From positions 6,489-70,488 of the forward strand of contig NZ_WTUX01000002.1 of assembly GCF_009882975.1 (NCBI RefSeq): a stretch of 64,000 nucleotides of DNA, given 5' to 3'. Below are positions 1 through 14,995 of this stretch, piece after piece. The stretch's first letter is position 1; every line of letters starts with the position of its first letter. A program made the position numbers and the translations under genes. The notes under the pieces are model-generated. The model searched no databases, was not told where the DNA came from, and was given only the letters and a program-made list of their open reading frames with translations. Origin of the DNA: Maritimibacter harenae. Lineage in GTDB: Bacteria > Pseudomonadota > Alphaproteobacteria > Rhodobacterales > Rhodobacteraceae.

Positions 1-30
1 GGCCTTGTCAGAGAAACTTGGCTTGAGGCG

Positions 31-780
31 GGGCAGGGCGCTGGCTAGCGTTCGAGCATGCCCAAGCCAAGTCCCTTCCGCTACTTCAAAACGTCGCCTG
101 AGATCATCCGTTTGGCGGTGATGCTGTACGTTCGGTTCCCGCTCTCGCTGCGAAATGTAGAGGACCTGCTCCATGAGCGCGGGATCGACGTGAGCCATGA
201 GACCGTCCGATATTGGTGGCATCGGTTCGGGCCAATGTTCGCGGCCGAGATCCGCAAGCGCCGGATTGACGGAATGCGGTCCAGTCGCTGGCGCTGGCAC
301 CTCGACGAGATGTTTGTGAAGATCAACGGGGAACGGCACTATCTTTGGAGGGCGGTCGACCATGAAGGAGAGGTCCTGGAGAGCTTTGTTACCAAGACCC
401 GCGACAGGAAGGCGGCCTTGAAGTTTCTAAAGAAAGCAATGCGCAAGCATGGCGGCCCGGAGACGATCGTGACCGACAAGCTCCGGTCCTACGGTGCCGC
501 CTTGAAAGAGCTCGGAGCCGATACGCGGCAGGAAACGGGCCGCTGGGTGAACAACCGCGCTGAGAACTCGCATCTACCATTCCGACGACGCGAAAGGGCC
601 ATGCTTCGGTTCCGGCGCATGCGAAGTCTCCAGAAATTCGCCTCCGTCCACGCCTCAGTCTCAAATCATTTCAACCAGGAACGCAGCCTCTCGAGCCGAC
701 CCGTTTTCAAGGCTAACCGCGCCGCCGCTCTGACCGAGTGGCGCGGTCTCTGCGCGGAATAAGGGACAGCGAACCTGCCC
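31..780 (+). mobile_element. IS6-family insertion sequence, tentative boundaries
   Basis: The element is defined by the complete IS6-type transposase gene inside it. An imperfect inverted repeat supports the ends: GGGCAGGGCGCTGGC begins at 31, and the complement of 763-780 reads GGGCAGGTTCGCTGTCC. No 8-bp target duplication is visible (left flank ttgaggcg, right flank tagctgag), which fits an adjacent deletion or rearrangement of the kind IS6 elements cause. The ends are inferred; an alternative left end at base 1 cannot be excluded because the window starts there. Confidence 0.55.
58..762 (+). CDS. IS6-family DDE transposase
   Basis: This 234-aa protein has the standard IS6/IS26 transposase layout. 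An N-terminal helix-turn-helix (about residues 25-55, with VSHETVRYWWHRFGP) is followed by an RNase H-like catalytic core. The DDE triad is visible as D83 (WHLDEMF), D140 (IVTDKLRSYG) and E169 (NNRAENSH). Length matches the family norm of roughly 235-240 aa and no frameshift is seen, so it should be active. It transposes its own element and can form cointegrates. It lies directly upstream of a truncated membrane-protein gene, so it probably caused that truncation. Confidence 0.95.
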   Translation: MPKPSPFRYFKTSPEIIRLAVMLYVRFPLSLRNVEDLLHERGIDVSHETVRYWWHRFGPMFAAEIRKRRIDGMRSSRWRWHLDEMFVKINGERHYLWRAVDHEGEVLESFVTKTRDRKAALKFLKKAMRKHGGPETIVTDKLRSYGAALKELGADTRQETGRWVNNRAENSHLPFRRRERAMLRFRRMRSLQKFASVHASVSNHFNQERSLSSRPVFKANRAAALTEWRGLCAE

Positions 781-900
781 TAGCTGAGACTGGTTCGAAT
801 TAGTCTGCCAGCACCCTCGCAGGAGCTTCTGGATGAGCTGGCGCCGGGACAGGGGGAGGCGACCCGCCTTCTGACGCAGCTGTCCGCACTGGGCCTGATC

Positions 901-2745
901 GTGGGGGAAGGATCGGCCGACAGCGAGCGGCTTTTCGACCAGACCTCGAAGATGCAGCGGAGCAGGCGGCTCGCCCAGCTGCGCACGCCGCTGGCGATCC
1001 GGTTTCCACTTTTCGATCCTGATCGGCTGCTTTTGAAGCTCTCTCCGCTCGGTCGCTTGATCTTTTCACGCATCGGCCTGTTTCTCTGGCTGGCCGTGGT
1101 CGGCACCGGCCTTGGCACGGCCGTCCTGCATGGCGAAGAGCTGTCGGCCAACATGATGGACCGGTTCCTGTCCGCCGAGAACGTCCTCGCCATGACGGCG
1201 ATCTTCGCCGTCCTCAAGCTGTTCCACGAATTCGGCCACGGGCTCGCCGTGCGCCGTTGGGGCGGAGAAGTGCACGAGATGGGCATCATGCTGCTCGTGC
1301 TGGTGCCGGTCCCTTATGTCGACGCGACCGCCGCCAACGAATTCCACACGCGGCTTCGGCGCGTCATCGTCTCGGCGGCCGGCATGTATGTCGAACTGTT
1401 CCTCGCGGCCCTGGCGATCCTTCTCTGGGCCCGGGTCGAGCCCGGCATGGTGCGCGCGGGGCTCTACAACGCGGCGCTGATCGGGTCGGTGAGCACGCTG
1501 CTGTTCAACCTCAACCCGCTTCTGCGGTTCGACGGGTATTACATCCTCTCCGATCTGCTGGGGATTCCCAACCTGGGCACCCGCAGCACCGCGTATTTCA
1601 AGTATCTCACGCAGCGCTACATCCTGTTCCTGGACGACGCGACGACACCCGAGACGCAGCCGGCCGAGAAACGGTGGCTCTTCTTCTACGCGGTGGCGGC
1701 CTTTCTCTACCGGATCACGATCGTGCTGGCGATCGCGCTGGTGGTGTCCAAGATGCTGTTCTTCATCGGCATTGCTCTCGCGGTCTGGGCCGTGGGGCAG
1801 TTCCTGGTCCTTCCCGCGATACAGATGATCCGCTTCCTCCTGTTCTCGCCTCGGCTGCGGGGCGGGCGCTTCCGCGTCATACTGCGGGCGCTGACGGCCA
1901 CCGGCGCGCTCGCCTTTCTCCTCTTCGTCATTCCCGCACCACGCTCGACGGTGACGTGGGGGGTCGTCTGGGTCCCCGAAGGCGGCGAGGTCGTGGCGGG
2001 GACGGACGGGTTCGTGTCCGACATCGCGGTGCGCAACGGTCAACAGGTTGCGGCCGGTGATGTCATCGCGCACCTGGACAACGAACGCACGCGGGGGGAG
2101 CTGGCGCGACTCGAGGCCCGGCGGGAGGCGCTGGAGACCCAGGTGCGCGCGGATTTCGTCGAGGACCGGGTTGCGCGTCGCGTGACCGAGCTCGAGCTCG
2201 ACCAGATCATCCGGCGGATCGACGACACCCGGCACCGTATCGAGGCGCTCACGCTCGCCGCACGGCTCTCGGGCCAGTTCTCGGTCGCGGTGTCCGGGGA
2301 CCTGGAAGATCGCTACGTCCAGCGCGGCGAGCGCCTGGGCTTCGTCATTCCGTCCGACCGCGCGACCGTCCGGGTCGCCGTGCGCCAGCAGGACGTCGAC
2401 CTCGTGCGTGCGTCGCTGAACGACATCCGGCTGATGTCGATGGACGACAGCGGCGTCGAGGGATCGGGCCGGCTGGTGCGCGAAGTCCCGGCCGCCTCGA
2501 CGCAGCTTCCGTCGATGGCATTGTCCACGATGGGGGGCGGCGACGTGGAGGTGGCGCAGGGCGAAGACGGGCAGCCCGCCGCGCTCGTCGATCACTTCCA
2601 TCTGGAAATCCGTCCCGAGCGGGTCGAGCACCGGCGCCGCGTGGGCGAAAAGATCCGCGTCAAGTTCCAGCACGAACCACAGCCGATCGGGCAACAGGCC
2701 TATCGGCGGCTGCGCCAACTGTTCCTGAGTGAATTCAGTGTCTGA
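901..2745 (+). CDS. 5'-truncated M50 zinc metallopeptidase / HlyD-like membrane protein
   Basis: The 614-aa product has several membrane segments (about residues 55-300) and a site-2-protease-type zinc site: HEFGH at 109-113 and NPLLRFDGYY later supplying the Asp ligand. A C-terminal lipoyl/HlyD-like region (about 350-600) follows, with coiled-coil arms around residues 395-460. This is the architecture of 'peptide zinc metalloprotease' proteins found near exporters. The frame is open upstream to 784, just after the IS6 end, and codes for a recognisable piece of the family's N-terminal region (TRLLTQLSALGLIV). The start GTG at 901 is therefore only the first usable codon. The original N-terminus and promoter appear lost. 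Function after truncation is uncertain. Confidence 0.8.
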   Translation: MGEGSADSERLFDQTSKMQRSRRLAQLRTPLAIRFPLFDPDRLLLKLSPLGRLIFSRIGLFLWLAVVGTGLGTAVLHGEELSANMMDRFLSAENVLAMTAIFAVLKLFHEFGHGLAVRRWGGEVHEMGIMLLVLVPVPYVDATAANEFHTRLRRVIVSAAGMYVELFLAALAILLWARVEPGMVRAGLYNAALIGSVSTLLFNLNPLLRFDGYYILSDLLGIPNLGTRSTAYFKYLTQRYILFLDDATTPETQPAEKRWLFFYAVAAFLYRITIVLAIALVVSKMLFFIGIALAVWAVGQFLVLPAIQMIRFLLFSPRLRGGRFRVILRALTATGALAFLLFVIPAPRSTVTWGVVWVPEGGEVVAGTDGFVSDIAVRNGQQVAAGDVIAHLDNERTRGELARLEARREALETQVRADFVEDRVARRVTELELDQIIRRIDDTRHRIEALTLAARLSGQFSVAVSGDLEDRYVQRGERLGFVIPSDRATVRVAVRQQDVDLVRASLNDIRLMSMDDSGVEGSGRLVREVPAASTQLPSMALSTMGGGDVEVAQGEDGQPAALVDHFHLEIRPERVEHRRRVGEKIRVKFQHEPQPIGQQAYRRLRQLFLSEFSV

Positions 2746-4303
2746 CGCGGCGCTCGATATCCGCGCAAGCCGCGCAGGCTCGCGAAAGGCGCGACGCGCG
2801 GCGGCCGGCCATTACGACGCCGACCGGCTCGATGCCCTGTTGGGGCAGACGAGCGCACCGGCCACACGCGCCCTTGCTTTGCGCCTGTCGGAGGGGCAGC
2901 GCGCGCTCGAGAGCGGCCCTCACGACCTGGCCGTGATCGCGCACGCCCTCGCCAATGTCGCCGGCCGCGGTGGGCGGGTGCAGGTTCTGTCGTTTGACGA
3001 CACCAGCCTGCGCGTCCATGACAGACTCGCCCCGGTACTGACCCGGATGAACGTCACCTGCGCCGCGATCCGGCCGGACATGCCGGTGCGGGCGCGGGCC
3101 CAGGCCTACGACGCCCGGGTCGTGTTTCTCGGCGCGCAGGATGCCGGGCTCGACCTTCTGCGGTCCCGCGTGTCCGCCGTGCGGCTCGGCGACCTGCGCG
3201 ATGGCTTCACCCGTCTCGCACCCCGCGCCGCGGCCGCGCGACTTCCCCGGCCCAGGGACATCGACTTCGCGCTGGTTCTCGACGCCGACCAGACGCTGAT
3301 CGAACGCTCGCTCGCGGGGATCGTGCTCACCGGCGAAGCACAAACAGGCCCGGCGCCGGTGTTGAGCGCGACCGAGACGCTCGGGATCGCCTCGCAGTTC
3401 GGCGCACGGGATTTCCGCTTCGTCGAGGGCGCGGCCGAATTGACGCCGGCGGGGCGTGAACGGCTCGAGCTTCTGACCTCGACGATGGGCCCGGCCTGGG
3501 CCAACCCCGCGCGCGCCGAACTCGCCGTGCGCGCGGGCCTCGCCTGCCTTCACCTTTGGCATCAGGGCGAAGATTACGTGATCGAAGAGGGCGCGGTCCG
3601 GGCCAGCGATGCGCTCGCGTCCAGGGCGCTCAACCTGCCGGGGCTCGACCCCGCCGCACTGCTGGCGGCGCGCCACAGGCTCGGAGACGACCGGGAAAAA
3701 TCGTCTTCGCTGGACCGCATCCCGCTGCGTGCCTTGCTTGCGCTCTACCCAAACCTGTCCACGCTGGTCCGCGATCTGCCGCGCCACGAGCCGGAGTTGA
3801 AATCGGCCTATGGGCTGCGTGCCCTGGGCCCGACGCGCAAGGTCCGCACGGAGCCATGCCTTCACGCCGCGCTGTTGCCGCACGCCTGCGGGCCCGCGCG
3901 GGCAGGGGATGTCTACCTCGTCGGCGGAACGAGCCGCGACGCGGAGCGGGTGCGGGCCGAGGCCGGAAATCCGCGCATCACCTGGCCCGCACCGGCCGAG
4001 AAGCCGGCGGGCGACCGGCCGATTGCCGTCGTGTCGCTCGGCGGCAATGCCTGGCCACAGTGGGCGCTGGACGAGGACGTTCTGCGGATCACCCTTCTTG
4101 CGCCCGACGAAGACCGGGCGCCGCCGTCCCGTTTGGCGCGTTTTCTGTCCGGTCACAGGATGTTGCGCCCGTTGAACGCGATCCTCTTTCGATACCTCGA
4201 TCGGCGTCGCACGGCGGACGCGACCCGATTGCGCCAGCGCCTTTACGACTTCGACCGCTCCTGCCGAAACGCCGTCACCATCCTCGGGAACTACCATGAT
4301 TGA
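2729..4303 (+). CDS. Degenerate SecA-like protein without Walker A
   Basis: The 524-aa protein follows SecA segment by segment but at low identity. Residues 50-70 match the SecA region around GEGKT, yet read ALESGPHDLAV with no GKT. Residues 179-200 (DFALVLDADQTLIERS...VLTGE) match the DEVDS Walker B and LIISG region. Residues about 265-295 match the SecA stretch HALF..DYIV.DG. YPNLSTLV...YGLRAL matches the SecA FRLYPKLSGMTGTA...YGL segment. The ATPase should be dead. It overlaps the peptidase gene upstream by 17 nt and the adaptor gene by 8 nt, so it is translationally coupled. A role as a non-catalytic substrate receptor or scaffold for export is inference. Start is GTG 2729 or 2738. Confidence 0.7.
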   Translation: MNSVSDAALDIRASRAGSRKARRAAAGHYDADRLDALLGQTSAPATRALALRLSEGQRALESGPHDLAVIAHALANVAGRGGRVQVLSFDDTSLRVHDRLAPVLTRMNVTCAAIRPDMPVRARAQAYDARVVFLGAQDAGLDLLRSRVSAVRLGDLRDGFTRLAPRAAAARLPRPRDIDFALVLDADQTLIERSLAGIVLTGEAQTGPAPVLSATETLGIASQFGARDFRFVEGAAELTPAGRERLELLTSTMGPAWANPARAELAVRAGLACLHLWHQGEDYVIEEGAVRASDALASRALNLPGLDPAALLAARHRLGDDREKSSSLDRIPLRALLALYPNLSTLVRDLPRHEPELKSAYGLRALGPTRKVRTEPCLHAALLPHACGPARAGDVYLVGGTSRDAERVRAEAGNPRITWPAPAEKPAGDRPIAVVSLGGNAWPQWALDEDVLRITLLAPDEDRAPPSRLARFLSGHRMLRPLNAILFRYLDRRRTADATRLRQRLYDFDRSCRNAVTILGNYHD

Positions 4304-5096
4304 CCTTCGCATCCCCTGTCTCGCCCTGTGCCTCGCCTCCCCGGTCCATGCCGAAACCTACGATTGCCTCATGGCCCCCTGGCGCACCGTGGAGGTCGGA
4401 ACGCCGGCCGCGGGGATCATCGACACGGTGGAGATCGACCGGGGCGACCGGGTCGAAGCCGGACAGGTGCTGGCGCTCCTCGACTCCGAGATCGAGGAAG
4501 CGACCGCCGCCATGGCCCGGCGGCGCGCGGACTCCACGACATCGGTCGACCTTGCGCTCGCCCAGTTCGACTTCGAGGCCGGGAACGTCGATCGCGCGCG
4601 GAAATTGAACGAGCGCGGTGTCCTGCCGGACCAGGAAATGGCCCAGGCCGAGGCCGCCTTCGAAATCGCACGGCTGCGGGTGACGGAAGCGCGCGAGGAG
4701 CGGAAAGCGGCGGAGATGGAGTTGGGCCGCACGGAAGCCATCCTCAAGCGGCTCGTGGTCCGCAGTCCGTTGAACGGCGTCGTCATGGAGGTCGTCGGGG
4801 CAGCGGGCGAATACGTGTCGCAGTCGGACTCGGTGGCGACCGTCGCGATGATCGACCCGATCCAGGTCGACGCCTTCCTGCCGCTCGACCTGATCGGCCG
4901 CATTGAGGAGGGGGACGAGGTGACCGTGCGCCCGCAAGCTCCCATCGGCGGAGAGCTCACGGGTACGCTCGATGTCATCGACGAGGTCGCCGACGCACGC
5001 AGTGGCACGATCCGGGTGCGCATCCGGCTCGAGAACGGCGCGTACAGGACGCTCGCGGGCCTCAATTGCAGCGTCGAATTCGATCTTCGGCCTTGA
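4296..5096 (+). CDS. Periplasmic adaptor (HlyD / membrane-fusion) protein
   Basis: This 266-aa protein starts with a signal peptide ending near SPVHA (residue 19). It then has a lipoyl half-domain (GIIDTVEIDRGDRVEAGQVLALLDSE), an alpha-helical hairpin rich in Ala, Arg and Glu (about 65-145), the second lipoyl half (VVRSPLNGVVMEVVGAAGEYV), and a beta-barrel domain. This is the membrane-fusion protein plan. It is short for a free-standing efflux adaptor. No outer membrane channel or ABC/RND pump gene is adjacent, so it likely works with the upstream peptidase/HlyD and SecA-like proteins, whose genes it overlaps. Confidence 0.85.
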   Translation: MIDLRIPCLALCLASPVHAETYDCLMAPWRTVEVGTPAAGIIDTVEIDRGDRVEAGQVLALLDSEIEEATAAMARRRADSTTSVDLALAQFDFEAGNVDRARKLNERGVLPDQEMAQAEAAFEIARLRVTEAREERKAAEMELGRTEAILKRLVVRSPLNGVVMEVVGAAGEYVSQSDSVATVAMIDPIQVDAFLPLDLIGRIEEGDEVTVRPQAPIGGELTGTLDVIDEVADARSGTIRVRIRLENGAYRTLAGLNCSVEFDLRP

Positions 5097-5896: not shown

Positions 5897-7123
5897 ATGA
5901 ACAATTACGATCCCGAGAAAGGCTACGTCGCCCTGCTGGGCTGGAGCCTGAACGCCATCGACGCAGCGGACCGGTTCGACCGGCGCTACATCGTCGTGGC
6001 CCCGTCCTGGGCCGAAGAGTACTGCGCCCAGAACGACATTCCCTTCATCAGCTGGGATTTCGACCGGCTGAACGAACGCTCCCACGAGCTCGCGCATCGG
6101 CTGCAGGAGGAAGGGGTCGACGTGGCCATTCCGCTCTACGAGGAGACGGTGGAATGGGCCGGCGCCATCAACTCGGTCCTGATGGGCAACCCGCGGCTTC
6201 TGGGGCAATCCATGCTGTTCCGGGACAAGTCGCTCATGAAACGTCGCGCGCAGCTTGGCGGCATCCGCGTGGGCGTTTTCGAAGAGGCGCACGACCGGGG
6301 CGACGTGACCCGGTTCCTCGTCCGGGTGAACCAGACGTTGCTCAAGCTCGACGGCGACCCGCACGATCCGATCCACTTCAAGGCGTTCGACAAGTCAGGC
6401 ACCGCGGGCCACCGGGTTATCCGCACGCCCGAGGACGTGGACAACATTCCCGACGAGGAATTCCCGGCGCTGCTGGAAAGCCACCTCGACGGGTGGGAGT
6501 TCGCGGTCGAGGCCTGGATCAAGGACCGCAAGATCCAGTTCCTGAACATTTCCGAATACGTGACGCTGGGCTACTCGGTCTTCGTGCCGGCGACACCGGA
6601 ACTGGAAGCGCACCGCGAGCGGATCACCGAGGAAATCGAGAAGCTCATCGAGACCTTCGACATCGATTTCGGCTTCATCCATCCGGAGTATTTCCTGACC
6701 AACGACGGCAAGCTCTACTTCGGCGAGGTCGCCTACCGTCCGCCGGGCTTCAAGGCGCTCGAACTGATCGAACGCGCTTACGGGTTCAGCGGCTACCAGG
6801 GGCTCATCGTCGTGTTCGACCCGAAGACGACGCAGGAAGAGCTCGACGCCTTCTTCCCGACGCCGATCGAGGACGCCAAGGGTCACGCCGGCTGCTTCGG
6901 CGTCTACCCGCGCCGCCGCGTGGTCAGCCGGCTCGAGGTGCCGGAGGAAACGAACAACCACCCGTATTTCGAATTCCACGAGCTGTCCGAGCCGATGGAA
7001 CAGAAGGTCACCAAGCGCACCGCCTTCGGGACGCACTGGGGTCTGGCCTTCTTCTTCGGCGACGATCCGCACCGGCTGCGTGATCTTCTCAAGGAGCAGG
7101 AAGAGCTGGACTTCTACGTCTGA
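5897..7123 (+). CDS. ATP-grasp ligase
   Basis: This 408-aa protein has an N-terminal Rossmann-like pre-ATP-grasp region (about 1-100) and then an ATP-grasp fold. The C-terminal metal/ATP signature is clear near FGFIHPEYFLTNDGKLYFGEVAYRPPG (acidic residues followed by R-P-x-G), preceded by FAVEAWIKDRKIQFLNISEY. It resembles carboxylate-amine/thiol ligases related to biotin carboxylase and peptide ligases. The substrate is not evident. GAGGAG lies just upstream of ATG 5897. A 65-bp gap separates it from the next gene, so the two are probably one operon. ATP-grasp enzymes next to thiol hydrolases are known in peptide-modification systems; applying that here is inference. Confidence 0.82.
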   Translation: MNNYDPEKGYVALLGWSLNAIDAADRFDRRYIVVAPSWAEEYCAQNDIPFISWDFDRLNERSHELAHRLQEEGVDVAIPLYEETVEWAGAINSVLMGNPRLLGQSMLFRDKSLMKRRAQLGGIRVGVFEEAHDRGDVTRFLVRVNQTLLKLDGDPHDPIHFKAFDKSGTAGHRVIRTPEDVDNIPDEEFPALLESHLDGWEFAVEAWIKDRKIQFLNISEYVTLGYSVFVPATPELEAHRERITEEIEKLIETFDIDFGFIHPEYFLTNDGKLYFGEVAYRPPGFKALELIERAYGFSGYQGLIVVFDPKTTQEELDAFFPTPIEDAKGHAGCFGVYPRRRVVSRLEVPEETNNHPYFEFHELSEPMEQKVTKRTAFGTHWGLAFFFGDDPHRLRDLLKEQEELDFYV

Positions 7124-7188: not shown

Positions 7189-9198
7189 ATGACCAACGGT
7201 GAACAACACGCGGCGAGACTTGCGGACACTCTGCAGGTTGTCGCCGCGCGGCTGGCGGAAGCGCGCCCCTTCGCGAAGGCGCGCCATCAATCGGCCGCGC
7301 TGGACGTGATCGGGCGGCTCGCCGCCCAGCCCGACGGGCTTGAATACCTGTTCGATCAGGCCACGCGGCTGGACAAGGCCGGGCTGTTCGCGGGCTCCGA
7401 CTGGGACATGCCCGAAACGCTTCTGCCGCAGTTGACGGGCCAGACGCTCGCAAGCGCGGATCGCGCGCTGGTGGCGCTGGAGGCGGCCAGTCTCCTGCGG
7501 CTTCTCGCCGTGGCCACGGGTCAGGCGACGCACCGCAACCTGCACGCGGATGCCGCCCGGCATTTCCTGGCGCAGGTGCTGGCCCACAACCTGCGCTATT
7601 TCTTCGCGACCGTGAGCGAAGCGGACCGGGAGCAGGACCCGACCGGCCTGCGTCCCCGCATCTTTTCCTTCATCGTCGAGCGGATCGGGTTCGGCGACGT
7701 GCTGGGCACGCTCGTCGAAGAGATCTGGCGCATCCTCGAACAGCGGCCGGTTCAGGTCGGTCCGGTCAAGGAAATGATCATGCAGATCTCGCTCGCCATG
7801 AGCGCGCGCGAGATCGAGACGGGGCAGGAGCGGCTGGGCGCCGACCGGTTGGTGAGCGCGCTCTTCGGTCCCACGGCGTCCTGCATGGACGACCCGGGCC
7901 TCGACGTGTTCCTCGACCGCATCGCGCATCTCGACGACAGCGGACTGCAGCGCGAGGCGCTGGGGTTTTCGCGCGCCATGCACGACACCGGGCTCGTCTC
8001 GGCCTACCACGCCGAGTTCCTGCGCTGGATCGCGAAGCGGACGGAGTCGGATTTCATGCCCGACACGCTGGGTCTTGGCCCGACGGGGATCGACTCCCTG
8101 CGCAGGTGGCGCGGGCTCGTGGGCGAGCTGATCGAGGTGGGCGTCACGGCCCACACGCCGCAGGCGGTCTATGGTCTCGCGCTCCTGCTCGAGCGCGGCA
8201 TCCTTCATTCGCCGCCCATCGCGCCCGCACTGCAACGCCAGCTGCGCACCCGGCCGACCGCGGAGGTGGCCGAACGTCTGCGCCTGGCCTTCGGCGACAT
8301 GGTGGAGCCGGAGCGCCTGCTGCTGGCCGGCACGCTCAACGTGCTGGGCCAACCTCTCGGGCTGGGGCAGGGGGCGAACCCGACCTGCCAGTCCGCTCGC
8401 GCGATCGCGATGTGGTCGTTCAATGACCCCGACTACGTCCTGCACCTGATCCGGCAGGTGGCCGAGGTCGATAGCATCATGATGCATTTCGAAGGCCAGC
8501 CGATCCATTCCGCCGACCTACCCGCCGGGCTCGCCCTCGGCGCGCCGATCGACGCGGACCCGGTGTCGGTCGCGTTGGTGCCGCACCTGGACCGGATCTA
8601 CGCCGAGATGGGCCGGCGCTGCATCGGGCGCGAAGGCGATCCGCACCGGTGGGTGAACCCGGAGTTCCACGGCTGGTGGGTGGCGCGCGACTGCGTGGTG
8701 GCGGTGGACGTCGCAAGCGGGATGTTGAGCGACTACGACGCCTTCATCACGCGGTTCCACCAGGGCTACCACCCCGAGTACAACGGCGGGCGGCCGGTCA
8801 TTCACCCCCAGCCCGCCGGGATCGCGGTCACGGATTCCTCGGCGCGCTTCGTGGGCTGGCATGCGATCGCCATCCTGCGGGTGGATGTGGACCAGCACGG
8901 CGTTCACCGGGTCTATTTCTTCAACCCGAACAACGACAGCGGCCAGGACTGGGGCGGCGACGTGATCGTCTCGACCAGCGGCCACGGCGAACGCCACGGC
9001 GAGGGGTCGCTGCCCCTGGACCAGTTCGTCTCCCGTCTCTACCTCTTCCACGACGACCCGCTGACGGCGGAGCTCCATGTCGAGGTGCCGGAGGCCGTTC
9101 TCCGCCGGATCGAGGACATGGCGCTGGCCAGCTGGGCGAGCGGACGCAAGGTGGAAGGTGCGCGTTCGATGGTCGGACTGGCGGACCCCGAAGCCTGA
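7189..9198 (+). CDS. Large protein with possible Cys-His-Asn hydrolase domain
   Basis: This 669-aa protein is not assignable by sight. The N-terminal 380 residues are mostly alpha-helical and lack signal peptide or membrane segments. The C-terminal part has features of a papain-like or transglutaminase-like fold: C400 in GANPTCQSARAIAMWSF, H558 in VGWHAIAIL, and N579 in FFNPNND, in that order. The spacing is typical of a cysteine peptidase or amidase whose His strand is followed by an Asn loop. TGGAGG precedes ATG 7189. Its place after an ATP-grasp ligase suggests it cleaves or transfers an amide made or used by that enzyme. The catalytic assignment is inference. Confidence 0.55.
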   Translation: MTNGEQHAARLADTLQVVAARLAEARPFAKARHQSAALDVIGRLAAQPDGLEYLFDQATRLDKAGLFAGSDWDMPETLLPQLTGQTLASADRALVALEAASLLRLLAVATGQATHRNLHADAARHFLAQVLAHNLRYFFATVSEADREQDPTGLRPRIFSFIVERIGFGDVLGTLVEEIWRILEQRPVQVGPVKEMIMQISLAMSAREIETGQERLGADRLVSALFGPTASCMDDPGLDVFLDRIAHLDDSGLQREALGFSRAMHDTGLVSAYHAEFLRWIAKRTESDFMPDTLGLGPTGIDSLRRWRGLVGELIEVGVTAHTPQAVYGLALLLERGILHSPPIAPALQRQLRTRPTAEVAERLRLAFGDMVEPERLLLAGTLNVLGQPLGLGQGANPTCQSARAIAMWSFNDPDYVLHLIRQVAEVDSIMMHFEGQPIHSADLPAGLALGAPIDADPVSVALVPHLDRIYAEMGRRCIGREGDPHRWVNPEFHGWWVARDCVVAVDVASGMLSDYDAFITRFHQGYHPEYNGGRPVIHPQPAGIAVTDSSARFVGWHAIAILRVDVDQHGVHRVYFFNPNNDSGQDWGGDVIVSTSGHGERHGEGSLPLDQFVSRLYLFHDDPLTAELHVEVPEAVLRRIEDMALASWASGRKVEGARSMVGLADPEA

Positions 9199-12847: not shown

Positions 12848-13624
12848 ATGGACGACACCCCCGAGAAGCCGGCCCGTGCCCCCGAGGGCATGGGCGGTCT
12901 TGCCAAGGGCCTTGCCATCATCGAGGCCTTTTCGACCGCGCGCCGGGAAATGACGGTCGCGAAGGCGGCGCAGGCGGCGGGCATTTCCCGGGCCTCCGCG
13001 CGCCGCTGCATGCTGACGCTGGCCGACCTGGGCTATGTCAGGCAGGTCGGGTCGGCCTACCTCCCGACGCCCCGCATGCTCAGGCTGGGCGACGCGTTCT
13101 TCGAGTCGAGCTCTTTGCCCCAGCTTGCCCAATCCCACCTGGACGACGCCCGCGACGAGTTGAACGAGGCGATTTCGCTTGCCGTGCTCGAAGAGGGGCA
13201 GGCCGTGTTCGTCGCCCGCGCCGAGGTCACGCGCCCCGTCAGCTCCTACGTGCGTCTCGGGGCCAAGCTGCCCGCGTTCGCCTCGGCGACCGGGCGCGTT
13301 CTTCTGGCGGATCTGAGCGATGACGAGGTCGACGCCTACCTGAAATCCGCCGACCTGGCGCCGCTGTCGACCAAGACCGTGACAGACGTGGGGCGTCTTC
13401 ACGACCTGATCGCCGAGGTTCGCGCGCAGGGCTATGCGCTGATCAATGAAGAGCTCGAGCTCGGGATGCTGGCGATGGCCGTGCCGGTCCGCAACAGGCA
13501 GGGCGAGGCGGTCGCGGCGCTGAGCATTTCGGCCTCGATCGCGCGCGTCGGCGTCGAGCAGGCCAGGCGCGAGTTCCTGCCCGTGCTGAAAGCCCGCGCC
13601 GAAGCGCTGTCGCGCATGCTTTGA
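12848..13624 (+). CDS. IclR-family transcriptional regulator (TphR/PcaR-like)
   Basis: This 258-aa protein has an N-terminal winged helix (about 15-75; TVAKAAQAAGISRASARRCMLTL) and an IclR effector domain (about 85-255) with ASATGRVLLADL and ALSISASI motifs seen in PcaR/PobR/TphR-type activators of aromatic catabolism. AGGAGAAGG precedes ATG 12848. It sits between a TRAP operon and a dioxygenase operon, each with a matching palindrome, so it likely controls both in response to the aromatic substrate. Confidence 0.88.
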   Translation: MDDTPEKPARAPEGMGGLAKGLAIIEAFSTARREMTVAKAAQAAGISRASARRCMLTLADLGYVRQVGSAYLPTPRMLRLGDAFFESSSLPQLAQSHLDDARDELNEAISLAVLEEGQAVFVARAEVTRPVSSYVRLGAKLPAFASATGRVLLADLSDDEVDAYLKSADLAPLSTKTVTDVGRLHDLIAEVRAQGYALINEELELGMLAMAVPVRNRQGEAVAALSISASIARVGVEQARREFLPVLKARAEALSRML

Positions 13625-13671
13625 TCCGCCGTCGCTCACGGGAACATCAACGGCCGGCCGGGGCGGTCGGG

Positions 13672-13701
13672 TTGACAGGTGTGGAACGTCGCTCCTACCA
13701 T
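13672..13701 (+). promoter_or_regulatory. Sigma70-type promoter of the dioxygenase operon
   Basis: TTGACA at 13672-13677 and TACCAT at 13696-13701 are separated by 18 bp, upstream of the oxygenase operon. The IclR-type palindrome begins about 18 bp after the -10 element, near or just beyond the transcription start, a position that suits repression. Confidence 0.45.
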
Positions 13702-13719
13702 GACCGTATAGCGATCAAT

Positions 13720-13734
13720 GTTCGTTATGCGAAC
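13720..13734. promoter_or_regulatory. IclR-type operator, copy 2 (GTTCG-TTATG-CGAAC)
   Basis: The arms are identical to those of the site at 12776-12790. Read on the minus strand it is GTTCGCATAACGAAC, one base different from copy 1. It lies between the probable promoter and the ribosome site of the dioxygenase gene. Its presence argues against translation starting at the upstream ATG codons 13718 and 13727. Confidence 0.7.
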
Positions 13735-13747
13735 ACGGGAGGAGCGA

Positions 13748-14995
13748 ATGCGGGACGTGGCAGAGCGCGCGGGGCCACTTGACGACTGGGAGGGTGGCGT
13801 CAATCGCGTGCCCTACTGGGTCTTTTCGGACGAGGACGTCTTTCGGGCCGAACAGGAAAAGCTCTTCCGGGGAAGCTCCTGGAACTATCTCTGTCTCGAG
13901 GTCGAGATCCCCAATCCCGGCGATTACGTCGCGACCCATGTCGGCACCACGCCGGTCATCGTGGTGCGCGATTTCGACGGGCAGATCTATTCCTTCGAGA
14001 ACCGCTGCGCGCATCGCGGCTCGCTCCTCGCCCTCGACGACCGGGGCAATGCGCGCGACTTCACCTGCGTCTACCACGCCTGGCGGCATTCGCTTCAGGG
14101 CGACCTGGTGGGCGTGGCCTTCGAAGAGGGGATGAACGGCACCGGAGGCATGGCCGAAGGGTTCTGCAAGAACAACCACGGGCCGCGCAAACTGCGCGTG
14201 GCCGAACTCTACGGGCTCGTCTTCGGCAGTTTCGACGAGGACATCGACGACATCGAGGAATACCTGGGCGACGAGATCACGGGTCGGGTCAAGCGCGTGC
14301 TCGACGGGCGCGACTGCGTCGTTCTGGGCCGGTTCACGCAGATCCTGCCCAACAACTGGAAGCTCTACGTGGAGAACACCAAGGACAGCTACCACGCCTC
14401 GATCCTGCACCTGTTCTTCACGACCTTCGAGCTGAACAAGCTGTCGATGAAGGGCGGCATCCTGGTCAGCCCGGACGGCGGCAGCCACGTGAGCTACTCG
14501 GCCATCGACCGGGAGGCGGAACAATCCAAGGCCTACCAGGAAGAGCAGCTGCGCTCGCAGAGCGATTACCAGCTTGCCGACATGTCGCTGCTCGAGAACT
14601 TCAAGGAATTCGACGACGACATCACGCTCCAGATTCTCTCGGCCTTCCCGAACTTCGTGCTCCAGCAGATCCAGAACTGCATCGCGGTGCGGCAGATCCT
14701 GCCCAAGGGCCCGGACAAGACCGAGCTCAAGTGGACCTACATCGGCTTCGCCGGCGACACCGAGGCGCAGCAGCGCATTCGCCTGAAGCTGGCCAACCTC
14801 GTCGGTCCGGCCGGCTACGTTTCGATGGAGGACGGCTGCATCGGCGGTTTCGTCCAGCGTGGCATCGCGGGCGCCGATGACAAGGAAGCCGTGCTCGAGA
14901 TGGGTGGCACCGAGTTCGGCAACAGCGGCAACCGGATCACCGAGGGGTCGATCCGCGGCTTCTGGAACGCCTACCGCGAGAGGATGCAGTCATGA
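13748..14995 (+). CDS. Rieske aromatic ring-hydroxylating dioxygenase, alpha subunit (TphA2-like)
   Basis: This 415-aa subunit carries the Rieske 2Fe-2S site C87-x-H89...C107-x2-H110 and the mononuclear iron ligands H216 and H221, with bridging D213 in [12 protein letters not shown]. It inserts O2 into an aromatic ring. ATG 13748 is chosen because GGGAGGAG lies 4-11 bases upstream, while the earlier ATGs fall in the operator palindrome. Downstream genes for the beta subunit, PdxA-like dehydrogenase and a ferredoxin-type reductase match the tphA2-A3-B-A1 order of terephthalate operons. The true substrate (terephthalate, isophthalate or another aromatic acid) cannot be fixed. Confidence 0.88.

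Follow-up and report, generated by a model that had tools for sequence, protein, structure and literature searches.

The stretch analysed here, called the window throughout, comprises 64,000 nucleotides of a contig of Maritimibacter harenae (genome G000). Between the gene of an M50 peptidase fused to an HlyD adaptor and that of a separate HlyD adaptor, it encodes a 524-residue protein that we firmly identify, by sequence comparison, as a SecA relative that has lost its ATPase motifs. The same slot recurs in a longer operon linked to giant proteins with a LEPR-XLL domain, where it mostly holds a SecA-like protein with intact motifs. The gene and its relevant parts are as follows.

2729 to 4303, forward strand: ATPase-dead SecA-like protein, 524 amino acids (Pfam, NCBIfam and PDB fold searches)
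2912 to 2929, forward strand: Walker A slot, residues 62-67, with SGPHDL where SecA has TGEGKT (alignment A3)
3278 to 3292, forward strand: Walker B slot, residues 184-188, with LDADQ where SecA has DExDS; D187 is retained (alignment A3)
3335 to 3703, forward strand: stretch that aligns with the preprotein cross-linking domain (residues 203-325); within it, residues 251-275 match their counterpart in G001, a genome of the same genus, at 92% identity
4229 to 4300, forward strand: C-terminal tail (residues 501-524), with 83% identity to G001

The protein matches SecA_DEAD (PF07517) above the gathering cut-off in a Pfam scan (E 4.5e-8). SecA structures occupy ranks 1-34 of a PDB fold search with its predicted model, and the top PDB matches of a second predicted model are again SecA. 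In the predicted model, likeness to SecA in fold and sequence spans the first nucleotide-binding domain (NBD1) and the cross-linking region. The alignment shows that the Walker A GxGKT/S and Walker B DExD motifs are both gone. SecA homology and loss of both motifs, claimed by the original prediction from the letters alone, are thus both borne out. No Pfam match to the second nucleotide-binding domain (NBD2; P-loop_SecA) was obtained, motif VI (GRxGRQG) is absent from the alignments, and no helical wing/scaffold match appeared in Pfam at E <= 1. Pfam also gives no PF01043 match for the window protein, though residues 203-325 align with the cross-linking domain; in the dead SecA of locus L040, PF01043 is detected. 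The housekeeping SecA of this genome (944 amino acids) is separately encoded. A reading of the locus as a defence system was rejected, as four window proteins were without a PADLOC match at E <= 0.001.

To place the gene in context, genome contigs were scanned with an M50 alignment, which gave at least 573 confirmed stretches; the best-scoring 80 loci were kept, so proportions among loci are not those of a random sample. The full operon order is giant LEPR-XLL protein, DUF3467 protein, GAF-HlyD, M50-HlyD, SecA-like protein and HlyD, sometimes with a TolC-type gene, and by sequence comparison the window trio is the 3' end of that longer operon. In G001 and in G008, G014 and G016 of the same family, a giant repeat protein is followed in order by DUF3467, GAF-HlyD, an M50-HlyD protein of about 715 residues and the SecA-like protein; the DUF3467 protein was not seen in G014. 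Of the 80 loci, 76 have at least 1.5 kb of upstream sequence, and in 75 of these GAF-HlyD lies before M50; 70 have 3.5 kb or more on the downstream side, with HlyD following in 53. DUF3467 is present in 29 of the 80 (PF11950 by Pfam in L027). The SecA-like gene adjoins M50, often with overlapping frames, and the HExxH and NPLLxFDGY motifs of M50 are kept in all five aligned rows. By record titles and NCBI ranks the hosts are Pseudomonadota, Thermodesulfobacteriota, Nitrospirota and metagenome-assembled genomes labelled Myxococcota. A complete plasmid of Alisedimentitalea scapharcae carries genes annotated as calcium-binding protein (24 kb), HlyD, peptidase M50 and SecA. Among 72,556 plasmid records, 13 hold an M50-HlyD relative, and five of these are predicted to be conjugative. 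The survey therefore found M50-HlyD, SecA-like and HlyD genes together in other genomes, and neither a missing SecA match nor a trio confined to this genome, the outcomes named as refuting, was observed. The view of the trio as a dedicated exporter unit stands in that the genes recur together; it needs changing in that the operon to which they belong is longer and associated with giant LEPR-XLL proteins.

This linkage was seen at several levels. The NCBIfam LEPR-XLL domain occurs in giant neighbours of L040, L064 and L074, and the three giant proteins scanned with Pfam (L024, L027 and L074) showed RTX, cadherin or DUF4347 matches. In a first check, LEPR-XLL scored above cut-off in nine of ten chosen genomes, the exception being that of the window, and in one of 14 controls. 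A survey of 394 genomes from the family to which the window belongs followed, with limits of E <= 1e-60 for M50 and E <= 0.01 for LEPR-XLL. M50 was found in 43 and LEPR-XLL in 37; both were present in 33, LEPR-XLL alone in four and M50 alone in ten (Fisher p 8.7e-35), and LEPR-XLL was found in none of 14 named control genomes. Of the 33 genomes with both, 28 have the two on one contig at most 60 kb apart, one has them at a distance of 153 kb and four have them on separate contigs. Among the ten genomes with M50 alone, six have weak M50 matches (E 3e-61 to 5e-88) and may carry another M50-HlyD system. The largest giant frame with a LEPR-XLL match has 17,824 codons (G102:C4:103221). In two of ten genomes (G233 and G154), a TolC-type gene (PF02321) is found some 1 kb away from the start of LEPR-XLL; in the other eight PF02321 occurs elsewhere, not beside LEPR-XLL. 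Because of this association we call the operon an exporter and infer that it exports the giant protein; that the SecA-like subunit belongs to the giant-protein operon is well supported by association. LEPR-XLL is named in a novel giant protein in one paper (PMC10868602), and PMC9611531 also contains the term.

The SecA slot could be scored in 74 of the 80 loci, since L048 and L069 leave no room for the gene and L026, L028, L072 and L082 are truncated by a contig end. Sixty-four slots hold a high-scoring SecA-like protein, all 64 with GxGK[TS] and DExD and 62 with motif VI, the exceptions being the short frames of L078 and L087. Five slots hold low-scoring proteins without Walker A and B (L016, L024, L053, L040 and L073), and a sixth dead locus, L088, surfaced only with broader profiles (E 1.5e-9). 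Behind M50 in L051 (Mangrovicoccus ximenensis, 12886-14688) lies an unrelated 600-residue open reading frame, which was considered as a SecA, rejected for want of SecA similarity and counted as 'no SecA'. In the 42 other M50-bearing genomes of the family, the high-scoring second SecA-type matches reach 232-356 bits, and two fall far lower, G296 (46 bits) and G365 (69 bits). The family searches with the M50 alignment and the window protein scored only two to three candidates per genome, so copies may be missed. Both low-scoring proteins (L192; L193/L194) are dead SecA-like proteins between M50 and HlyD, and the operon of G365 is split over two contigs. A match in G055 proved to be an ordinary 909-residue SecA and was removed from the comparison. 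Ten dead proteins are thus available: those of the window, G001, L016, L024, L053, L040, L073, L088, G296 and G365. Besides the dead protein, G001, G424 and G425 have only the housekeeping SecA above cut-off; in G426 and G427 a second SecA-type frame scores high as well. Such a frame lies elsewhere in G432, the genome of L022; G429 (L074) and G433 (L064) have the housekeeping SecA only.

Because 64 of the 74 slots keep intact motifs, the pseudo-SecA represents a degenerate variant of this subunit that recurs, not its basic type. In a tree of 85 M50 rows, placing eight dead against 71 SecA-like rows needs five changes, three of them forced by well-supported branches. When 34 of the 85 rows were analysed under a simpler model, four changes were needed, again with three forced, and a single clade of the eight dead rows was rejected (p-AU 0.024); this is moderate evidence, as these 34 rows were picked after the first tree. 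G296 and G365 are not in these trees. The ATPase motifs were likely lost several times, and the window/G001, Seongchinamella and L016 proteins may share one common loss.

In the window's genome, a mobile element seems to have truncated this operon. The neighbouring features are as follows.

1 to 816, forward strand: IS6-family insertion sequence (transposase open reading frame 58-762; NF033587, E 2.5e-61), abutting the cut 5' side of the operon
817 to 2745, forward strand: remnant of the M50 peptidase/HlyD fusion with its N-terminal part gone (HlyD_3, 2.7e-7; Peptidase_M50, 3.4e-6)
4296 to 5096, forward strand: HlyD/RND-type periplasmic adaptor, 266 amino acids, the final operon gene (HlyD_D23, 8.8e-21; TIGR01730, 8.2e-34)

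The M50 frame is open from 784 and its first start codon, GTG at 901, gives a product of 614 residues. It covers model positions 74-715, thus starting at 74 of 715, and is 78% identical to the 715-residue protein of G001; its Peptidase_M50 score (27.0 bits) lies slightly below the Pfam cut-off of 27.2. The missing N-terminal part is 'PqqD-like' only by plasmid annotations. A similar unbroken frame occupies the place of the window HlyD adaptor in G001. In the window's assembly, which is 99.47% complete, no LEPR-XLL gene and no GAF-HlyD ortholog were found by search, two matches to the latter spanning its HlyD part only. Because the IS6 element abuts a 5'-truncated M50 gene and these genes were not found, the copy in the window has probably become a relic that most likely no longer works as an exporter. 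A reservation on this reading is that insertion sequence copies can mislead assembly: a second IS6 copy lies upstream on the contig, aligning over 816 bp at 92.5% identity to the window copy, and a single N marks the join at the left edge of the latter, so that the junction there is not secure. In G001 the operon is complete, its SecA is dead, and a 5434-codon LEPR-XLL frame with RTX repeats lies on the same contig.

Further observations concern the surroundings. The two IS6-family copies flank putative prophage genes just upstream of the window, including a terminase-like gene read from the frames. In L010 (G001), a broken IS6 transposase directly follows the operon HlyD; an element of that family also borders the window's truncated operon. 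Downstream in the window, a 408-residue open reading frame with a weak ATP-grasp match (5897-7123) adjoins one of 669 residues (7189-9198) with neither a Pfam or NCBIfam match (E <= 1) nor a PADLOC match.

What the dead protein might do can be framed by a mechanism for the whole operon. The SecA-like subunit would take up the giant LEPR-XLL chain and hand it to an inner-membrane step, and the HlyD adaptors with a TolC-type channel would form the periplasmic and outer-membrane passage. A dead subunit would be retained for a non-catalytic role, in docking or in binding the substrate, while the housekeeping SecA would carry out the ATP-driven step. We favour this docking role within a giant-protein exporter tentatively, at somewhat short of even confidence. 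In its favour stand the recurrence of the operon, the linkage with LEPR-XLL, the dead forms found in one and the same slot, the constraint described below, the full operon of G001 with its dead SecA, and the fact that G001, G424 and G425 have no SecA above cut-off other than the dead one and the housekeeping protein. The wider proposal is possible but more doubtful: a new envelope-spanning LEPR-XLL exporter in which SecA-type, M50-HlyD and GAF-HlyD proteins replace the ABC transporter of type I secretion, and in which a pseudoenzyme binds or gates the substrate in several lineages while the housekeeping SecA provides the power.

The main rival is decay: as the housekeeping SecA can serve the exporter, the dedicated ATPase would be superfluous and the dead proteins functionless, degenerating leftovers. 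We consider this less likely than the docking role. None of the ten dead frames, which span 511-651 codons, is interrupted, and in the two dead pairs for which nonsynonymous and synonymous divergence (dN and dS) were compared, the ratio is well below 1: 0.17 in Seongchinamella (dN 0.113, dS 0.659) and, with dS above 1 and near saturation, 0.30 between the window and G001 (0.46/1.53; NG86). Constraint also seems unevenly spread and not uniformly lost. This was judged from identity relative to the whole protein in three dead pairs (81, 51 and 38% identical), with 501 of 528 active pairs (40-60% identical) as the reference. NBD2 gives 0.83-0.87 in dead pairs and active means of 1.15-1.19 (range 0.99-1.38), an imperfect comparison in that the Seongchinamella proteins share 81% identity and the two active pairs exceeding 60% likewise fall to 0.91-0.93. 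The C-terminal tail gives 0.97-1.05 in dead pairs and active means of 0.62-0.63, the dead values falling around the upper limit of what active pairs show (0.29-1.03), and the cross-linking region does not differ (0.89-1.09 dead versus 0.75-1.13 active). The pattern is compatible with a receptor or gate role.

The qualifications just given for all three regions weigh against a retained docking function, as do the following observations, several of which are what decay would predict, as is the recurrence of dead forms. Dead SecA is under weaker constraint than its operon neighbours: five other Seongchinamella operon genes, including the 3' part of the giant gene, have dN/dS of 0.08-0.11, and between the window and G001 the mean identity of the SecA-like protein is 51%, against 78% for M50. 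The subunit is dispensable, as four of the 74 slots (L022, L064, L074 and L051) contain no SecA-like gene. No second SecA-type match was found in ten of the 42 family genomes (G083, G094, G122, G125, G132, G211, G263, G338, G372 and G418), among which G122, G263 and G418 have LEPR-XLL as well as M50. The window's operon is truncated, and neither a LEPR-XLL nor a GAF-HlyD gene was detected in the same genome. The case for a general receptor role is weakened by L073, whose dead SecA has no cross-linking region (0 of 66 consensus columns). Finally, recognition of the dead proteins as SecA is uneven: L088 has no Pfam or NCBIfam match, L073 falls slightly below the Pfam cut-off and G001 barely meets it.

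A second rival holds that the SecA-like protein is no motor even when intact and acts as a chaperone or unfoldase, presenting the giant chain to M50, with ATP being optional. Two intact members match SecA_DEAD, SecA_PP_bind and P-loop_SecA with no wing/scaffold model (E <= 0.01). The two-helix finger of SecA sits in the wing/scaffold part and so seems to be absent from them. The adjoining and often overlapping M50 frame would also suit such a role. In contrast, the conservation of ATPase motifs in all 64 high-scoring copies indicates that ATP turnover matters in most lineages, and we regard this explanation as quite improbable. That the SecA similarity reflects chance or a generic P-loop fold can be rejected as highly improbable: a phmmer search of PDB sequences gave no significant match (E 0.23) and a dead-only structure model had low confidence, but the Pfam match, the SecA top ranks for both models and an operon slot shared with undoubted SecA relatives all speak against it.

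Export of proteins of many thousand residues from Gram-negative cells is known mainly for ABC-type type I secretion systems. If our reading is correct, a conserved operon that ties HlyD adaptors, an M50 peptidase and a SecA relative to giant proteins, with frames as long as 17,824 codons, would constitute another export route, and a recurrently ATPase-dead SecA subunit would provide a natural experiment on the roles of SecA besides burning ATP. The findings also bear on annotation, as the slot gene on the Alisedimentitalea scapharcae plasmid is named 'preprotein translocase subunit SecA'. We found no description of the operon, by title or abstract, in the literature searched, whose coverage excludes preprints and most subscription papers; the available passages of PMC3482391 and PMC8277102 do not describe it.

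Among known systems, the SecA translocase (PF07517, PF01043, PF21090) resembles the window protein over NBD1 and the cross-linking region, and differs from it by the Walker A, Walker B and NBD2 motifs that the window protein has lost and by a wing/scaffold that finds no match there. Accessory SecA2 (TIGR04221) is likewise a second SecA-type protein beside the housekeeping one and is the best NCBIfam match of the window protein, but the score is 36 against a cut-off of 725 and the ATPase motifs are lost. SecA2 systems are accompanied by SecY2/Asp proteins, whereas the window relative is accompanied by HlyD adaptors and M50. The M50 part matches the daptide/LiaK-type peptidases (NF041824, NF058609), with E 4.6e-46 to NF041824, but at 157.7 bits against a cut-off of 300, and it is fused to HlyD. 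Type I secretion (ABC-HlyD-TolC, exporting RTX proteins and giant adhesins) has in common with the operon the HlyD-type adaptors, including that at 4296-5096 and the M50-HlyD fusion, the RTX and cadherin repeats of the giant proteins scanned, and the TolC-type gene near the LEPR-XLL start in two of ten genomes. No ABC transporter is among the core operon genes of the one annotated plasmid, no search having been aimed at ABC proteins; dipeptide-type ABC genes lie several kb beyond the operon there. The LEPR-XLL operon instead has M50-HlyD, GAF-HlyD and SecA-like proteins, together with a giant protein bearing an N-terminal LEPR-XLL motif.

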